A stretch of 6,303 bases of DNA from Gammaproteobacteria bacterium (GTDB lineage Bacteria; Pseudomonadota; Gammaproteobacteria; J044): contig JALWNJ010000112.1 of assembly GCA_026995955.1 (NCBI GenBank), forward strand, positions 1 to 6,303, in the 5' to 3' direction. The stretch's first letter is position 1, and each line of letters starts with the position of its first letter. Positions 5,319 through 6,303 of the stretch are shown here, in pieces. The position numbers and the translations under genes are program-made. Under the pieces are notes generated by a model. The model was given only the letters and a program-made list of their open reading frames with translations. It was not told the DNA's origin and ran no database searches.

Positions 5319-6142
5319 CCACACGCTATGCGGATCTGGAAGGGGCCCGGGTGCTCGTCACCGGCGCTTCCGGTGGACTGGGGGCGGCCATGGCCCGCGC
5401 CTTCGGCGCCCAGGGCGCGCGCGTCGTCGTGCACTACCGCACCCGTGCCGAGGGCGCGGCGCAGACCGCCGTGGCCGTGGCCGAGGCCGGCGGCGAGGCC
5501 GTCAAGCTGCATGCCGACCTGCGTTCCGAGGCCGCCATCGAGCGGCTGGTGGAGGCGGCCTGGGCGCAGTGGGACGGCCTCGATGTGGTGGTCAACAACG
5601 CCGGGGTGGTGCTCAAGGCCGCCATTCTCGATGCCGGCAGCCGCTGGTGGGACGAGGTGCTGGGCGTGAACCTGCGCGCCCCCTATCTGCTGTCGCGGCT
5701 GGTGGCGGCACGCATGATCGACGCCGGCATCCGCGGCACCATCCTGCACAACAGCAGCATCCATGCGCGCCGCAGCACCCAGTTCTTTTCTGCCTATGCC
5801 GCCTCCAAGGCGGCGCTGGAGATGCTGGCCAGCGTGCAGGCCCTGGAGTGGGCAGAGCACGGCATTCGCGTCAACTGCGTGGCTCCCGGCGTGGTGCCGG
5901 TGGAGCGTACCGCGCTGGCGCTGGCCGAGGCCGAGGCGGTGTGGCGCCCGCACATCCCGCTGGGCCGCTACGGCCGGCCGCAGGACATCGCCGAGCTGAC
6001 CCTGTTCCTCGCCTCGCAGGCCAGCGGCTGGACTACCGGGCAGTCGTTCGTGGCCGATGGTGGTATGCTTGCGCGCATCGACATGCCGCGCCGGCCCCGC
6101 CCGCCGCTGCCCCCCGAACCCGACCCCATCGAAGAGCCATGA
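5315..6142 (+). CDS. Short-chain dehydrogenase/reductase (classical SDR)
   Basis: A 275-residue cytosolic NAD(P)-dependent oxidoreductase with a Rossmann fold. The cofactor motif is TGASGGLG (16-23). Acidic-adenine site D68 lies in HADL, NNAG is at 94-97, and the catalytic tetrad is N119, S148, Y161 and K165 (YAASK). VNCVAPG (186-192) and WTTGQSFVADGG near the end are also typical. The second strand ends in VVVHYRTR with no Asp/Glu, and Arg at 42 and 44 suggests NADPH preference. The substrate cannot be inferred. FabG, glucose dehydrogenase and pteridine reductase-like enzymes all look alike at this level. After the usual SDR end there is an extra Pro/Arg-rich tail of about 22 residues (PRRPRPPLPPEPDP). 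The start overlaps the preceding stop as ATGA, and the stop overlaps the pyrE start in the same way, implying coupled translation. Confidence 0.93.
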   Translation: MTTRYADLEGARVLVTGASGGLGAAMARAFGAQGARVVVHYRTRAEGAAQTAVAVAEAGGEAVKLHADLRSEAAIERLVEAAWAQWDGLDVVVNNAGVVLKAAILDAGSRWWDEVLGVNLRAPYLLSRLVAARMIDAGIRGTILHNSSIHARRSTQFFSAYAASKAALEMLASVQALEWAEHGIRVNCVAPGVVPVERTALALAEAEAVWRPHIPLGRYGRPQDIAELTLFLASQASGWTTGQSFVADGGMLARIDMPRRPRPPLPPEPDPIEEP

Positions 6143-6180
6143 AGGACTATCAGCGCGAGTTTCTCGAGTTTGCCATCCGT
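6139..6180 (+). pseudogene. pyrE: pyrE 5' fragment (orotate phosphoribosyltransferase), broken after codon 14
   Basis: The first 14 codons read MKDYQREFLEFAIR, matching the PyrE N-terminus (E. coli MKPYQRQFIEFALS). PyrE transfers phosphoribose from PRPP to orotate in pyrimidine synthesis. After codon 14 the frame stays open to the window edge but encodes Arg/Pro/Ala-rich noise instead of the expected GEFTLKSGR region, because the sequence there is inverted pyrE. The start overlaps the SDR stop as ATGA. Whether this is a true pseudogene or a sequence artefact is open. The intact gene presumably exists in the organism. Confidence 0.8.
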
Positions 6181-6301
6181 CCTGGCCGTGCTGCTCGGCG
6201 AGCTGCACCGCGGTGGCGGAGACCAGCGGGATGCCCTTGTAGGCCGGGCCGAACAGCACATCGTACTCGAGGCCGGCGTCGAGGATGGTGCGGGCATAGT
6301 A
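6179..6301 (-). pseudogene. pyrE: Inverted internal fragment of pyrE
   Basis: Read on the minus strand from the right edge, 41 codons encode PyrE from YYARTILDAGLEYD through VLFGPAYKGIPL to TAVQLAEQHGQD. This corresponds to about residues 52-92 of E. coli PyrE, including the family signature FGPAYKGIP. Beyond the Asp codon at 6181-6179 the frame runs into the reverse complement of the forward pyrE start, and similarity ends. The PRPP-binding motif (around residue 120 onwards) is absent. The fragment faces the 5' piece head-on, so one gene is represented in opposing orientations. Confidence 0.88.
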
Positions 6302-6303
6302 GC

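Follow-up and report, generated by a model that had tools for sequence, protein, structure and literature searches.

A fold-back chimera of pyrE as the probable origin of a false contig end in a draft gammaproteobacterial genome

The inverted copy of pyrE codons 93-51 that closes one contig of a draft gammaproteobacterial genome is, with a probability of about 0.93, a fold-back chimera formed in vitro, by whatever route, rather than a genomic inversion, and the 3' end of the contig is best read as such a chimera kept as a false contig end. The window, that is, the whole stretch of DNA that was analysed (6,303 nt), is the complete contig C112 of this assembly (G000, a 2.15-Mb draft in 443 contigs, 86% complete), and its last base is 6303. 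The original prediction had ranked an inversion behind an inverted chimera or a false contig end, and this preference is borne out by a contig that ends within the inverted arm, by a second contig (C252) that continues pyrE at the switch, and by a relative in which the gene is uninterrupted; that no second breakpoint was found in the partly masked genome, and that other contig ends fold back, points the same way.

Towards its 3' end, C112 runs from a short-chain dehydrogenase (SDR) gene into pyrE codons 1-14 (6139-6180, plus strand), passes a CGTC switch and goes on into inverted pyrE codons 93-51. The first 14 codons, translated on the plus strand as MKDYQREFLEFAIR, are the true 5' end of the gene: they lead in frame into the reverse complement of C252, giving a protein of 214 aa, and a same-genus protein has the same start and the same length without interruption. 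At the switch (6178-6181), a base-by-base comparison of the true path, the window, and C252 leaves CGTC as a microhomology of 4 nt that fits both sides, position 6177 departing from the C252 side and position 6182 from the true forward path. The fold-back arm (6178-6303, minus strand) is an inverted exact copy, identical at 126/126 bases to C252 positions 3226-3351 on the same strand and antisense to pyrE (E 5.5e-60, far beyond chance), and it stops flush with the contig end. The joined sites lie 230 nt apart, the intervening stretch being skipped at the join. A repeat scan inside the window found none for the pyrE locus, because the partner of the arm lies on C252. The original observation is confirmed in its essentials: codons 1-14 run forward as had been stated, and the inverted codons, correctly given earlier as about 92 to 52, are fixed by the exact match at 93-51; bases that could belong to either side had also been expected and do exist, being CGTC and not the GTCC that had been named.

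The remainder of the gene is found on C252 (3464 bases), where pyrE codons 14-214 follow in normal order on the minus strand, through to the stop. C252 itself ends at codon 14, its reverse complement starting with CCGTC, which corresponds to window positions 6177-6181 at the switch, and C112 and C252 joined there form one open frame of 214 codons, encoding a PyrE of 214 aa. It is thus on C252 that pyrE continues. Queried with the pyrE family model, the own genome gave two places and nothing more, C252 scoring above the cut-off and the C112 arm under it, and no second complete pyrE came to light, the gene being split between the two contigs; as for an intact copy elsewhere, no single contig was found to hold a complete one, and what is uninterrupted is the run of codons 14-214. 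With the whole of C252 as query, the own genome yielded two matches other than C252: the C112 arm and, on C109, a weak one of 36 bases (86%). The chimera and the inversion had been expected to differ in the sequence beyond 6303; C112 ends there, and the normal order of codons 14-214 on C252 supplies part of the answer. The sequence past about 6181 is not to be taken as part of the organism's genome.

The same arrangement recurs, unbroken, in relatives. A genome of the same genus (G001) carries SDR and pyrE in one uninterrupted stretch, its PyrE being identical to the joined protein at 194/214 residues with no gaps, and in a genome of the same family (G002) SDR-pyrE is uninterrupted to the end of the fetched locus at codon 160, with 132/160 residues identical and again no gaps. 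When the start of SDR-pyrE was searched in 37 genomes (the own genome and 36 relatives), matches appeared in 13; G001 and G002 are the only ones besides the own genome to match along the SDR gene, the other matches spanning at most 91 bases. When genome records were searched with the SDR protein, the window's own records possibly being left out, the best 80 of 152 relatives comprised one close match (L019, 92%) and 79 at 30-40% identity. L019, from record RFHG01000427.1 of the MAG 'Gammaproteobacteria bacterium isolate J044', shares sequence with the G001 locus (L008).

The two joined sites are capable of pairing with each other well beyond the four shared bases. When codons 14-24 are aligned with codons 82-93 in reverse complement, 27/35 columns agree, with perfect runs of at most 8, and the score of this alignment is reached by 38/4886 random pairs and by 6/2001 pairs at like spacing; on this measure the inverted repeat is uncommon, not unique. 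With DNA parameters, the computed pairing of the two 40-base sites comes to -32.9 kcal/mol. When every second position of the 9640-base joined locus is tried with the same spacing, none of 4625 other positions is as low (the best reaching -30.4 kcal/mol), and a partner chosen freely 60-600 nt away allows 2/150 random sites to pair equally well, both tests being descriptive in that the sites were picked after the junction had been seen. A separate scan returned one position in 2336 that equals -32.9 kcal/mol, and this is the junction site itself. The junction lies at the outer foot of the stem, GACG pairing with CGTC, which fits a 3' end at codon 93 that would have snapped back on codons 14-24 and been extended through codons 13-1. 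Had a 3' end at codon 14 instead primed on codon 93, just four bases would have been used, and the long stem would have no explanation.

A course of events that suits these features would begin during amplification or library making with a single pyrE strand ending 3' at codon 93 (CCAGGACG-3'). On folding back, this strand would pair its codons 82-93 with codons 14-24, to which they are imperfectly complementary, the terminal GACG resting on CGTC (6178-6181), and a polymerase could then extend the folded 3' end into a reversed copy of codons 13-1 and of the SDR gene. The resulting chimeric reads would present the assembler with a false branch, which it may have followed for 126 bases, roughly one k-mer node, until it reached sequence that it had assigned to C252. 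Recurring exact overlaps between contig ends suggest a k-mer node of about 126-127 nt: among 12 end-overlapping contig pairs, four overlap exactly (126, 126, 127, and 102 nt) and eight inexactly (98-150 nt, 98-99%), and with eight of the 12 inexact, the node is something that we infer. In the pairs C22/C104, C101/C131, C110/C136, and C251/C276 (L130/L152, L149/L218, L158/L223, and L179/L243), the ends overlap by 131-150 bases (98.7-99.3% identity) and were left unmerged by the assembler; such inexact overlaps perhaps reflect strain variation or errors near ends.

Fold-back ends are a recurring feature of this assembly. The statistic applied here scores a contig end as folding back when its terminal bases recur, perfectly reverse-complemented, within the last 400 bases of the contig, and of the 142 G000 contigs examined, 101 were readable, providing 202 ends. 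Fold-backs of at least 12 nt occur at 7/202 readable ends against 3/5944 internal positions (Fisher p 4e-9, the controls coming from the same contigs and so not being independent), and those of at least 16 nt at 5/202 ends against 0/5944. The seven ends, with 12-40 perfect bases, belong to C141, C115, C414, C258, C257, C119, and C117 (L228, L162, L202, L185, L184, L166, and L164, respectively); the C112 arm, having its partner on C252, does not count among them. Other sequence contradicts three of the seven. The tip of C258 is an 18-base palindrome whose last two bases clash with C241, the exact overlap of the two contigs being 126 bases; the 12-base tip of C257 clashes with C263 past an exact 102-base match and sits at the foot of a predicted hairpin; and C141 tracks the same-genus genome roughly as far as its 40-base arm, which then matches the opposite strand. 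In a comparison of six of these ends with G001, a search that scored 40/191 candidates, two were matched (C141 and C257) and four were not, and those four (C115, C414, C119, and C117) could in part be true hairpins. Among contig ends of other assemblies, 0/33 fold back by at least 12 nt, a number too small for the contrast to be significant (Fisher p 0.34). Other 'inverted' ends in the G000 assembly need a check before any biological reading is placed on them, and the terminal fold-back statistic offers a quick screen for assemblies of this kind.

As to where within the in-vitro reading such a chimera would have arisen, multiple displacement amplification (MDA) with phi29 would be the probable source, judging by analogy with published chimeras and from assembled contig ends. 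In the study by Lasken and Stockwell (2007, PMC1855051), 406/475 MDA chimeras were inverted, 337/406 of these had segments less than 10 kb apart, and priming was mostly at complementary sequences of 2-21 nt. The C112 arm resembles these chimeras in being inverted relative to the genome and antisense to pyrE, in joining sites less than 10 kb apart (230 nt) with the stretch between them skipped, and in a join complementarity, CGTC/GACG, whose 4 nt fall within the 2-21 nt range. It differs from them in a pairing potential that extends about 35 columns past the junction, which favours hairpin snap-back over branch migration, whereas that study excludes hairpin self-priming as a major MDA route and puts branch migration first. 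The strong stem accordingly speaks for a minor route or a different step, and the exclusion counts against the exact snap-back step proposed here and not against a chimera as such. All amplified Illumina libraries in one study contained more wrongly oriented reads (PMC4060946), and chimeras in an MDA metagenome were mostly inverted, about 500 bp apart, and rare, at less than 0.07% of unmapped reads (PMC10945365). The main rival is the same kind of fold-back chimera produced without MDA by ordinary library preparation, through end repair or fill-in of partly single-stranded fragments or through PCR, and such other library steps are a possible though less likely source. A junction placed at the foot of a strong stem would suit self-priming by a hairpin, whatever the polymerase step, a predicted hairpin or a palindrome likewise marks the ends of C257 and C258, and inverted-repeat chimeric reads are reported from nanopore ligation library preparation (PMC13141652); yet fold-backs at 7/202 ends suggest a high chimera rate, which would be expected more readily from amplified DNA. 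It is very improbable that the assembler alone misjoined the paths with no chimeric read involved. The contig does end there, and the arm does equal a 126-base stretch of another contig, but the paths share four exact bases (CGTC) and the repeat runs reach at most 8, far below usual k-mers, so that a graph edge would itself need a chimeric read.

A genuine small inversion of about pyrE codons 15-93, present in part of the population, having arisen by recombination or template switching between imperfect inverted repeats and turning pyrE off, is very improbable. The segment is indeed flanked by the imperfect inverted repeat described above. C252, however, keeps codons 14-214 in normal order and reads through the site expected for a second junction, the search of the own genome with all of C252 disclosed no further copy except the C112 arm and the weak 36-base match, the arm halts at the contig end after 126 bases, and the same-genus relative is uninverted across the whole gene. 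A simple inversion requires a second junction, from inverted codon 15 to forward codon 93/94, and the predicted 40-mer of this junction, together with its central 12, 14, and 16 bases, was absent from the loci compared, an incomplete absence inasmuch as 41/142 contigs are N throughout, the genome copy searched is possibly masked likewise, and the other 301 contigs of G000 were covered by the own-genome searches only. In invertible DNA segments, which underlie phase variation, a segment between inverted repeats occurs in two orientations. The stretch of pyrE between the two repeats likewise appears in both orientations, but these repeats are imperfect coding sequence, and the segment belongs to a housekeeping gene; in place of two reciprocal junctions one was found, at a contig end, within the limits set by the N contigs. 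No recombinase figures among the Pfam matches of the seven window genes that were scanned. Less probable still is the conjecture that the quasi-palindrome in pyrE might let codons 15-93 flip in some cells by hairpin template switching, with no dedicated recombinase, as a reversible switch of pyrimidine synthesis.

Upstream of the probable in-vitro chimera, the window holds the SDR gene (5315-6142, plus strand), whose protein, translated from 5315-6139, matches Pfam families PF13561 (E 1.4e-57) and PF00106 (E 6.7e-46). Its stop overlaps the start of pyrE in the sequence ATGA (6139-6142), an arrangement that may couple translation of the two genes; in the same-genus relative, as read from the alignment, the stop falls a few bases before the pyrE start. 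Searched against the own genome, window positions 1-5300 gave 10 further matches, nine of them in a sigma-54 regulator gene, and none bears on the inverted arm. Open frames of 318 and 91 aa lie on the minus strand at 21-977 and 2135-2410 and have no Pfam match at 1e-3. The plus-strand gene at 4713-5318 encodes a 201-aa protein, likewise with no Pfam match at 1e-3, that contains CCVAHDRAYW, which we take to recall the active-site motif of phospholipase A2.
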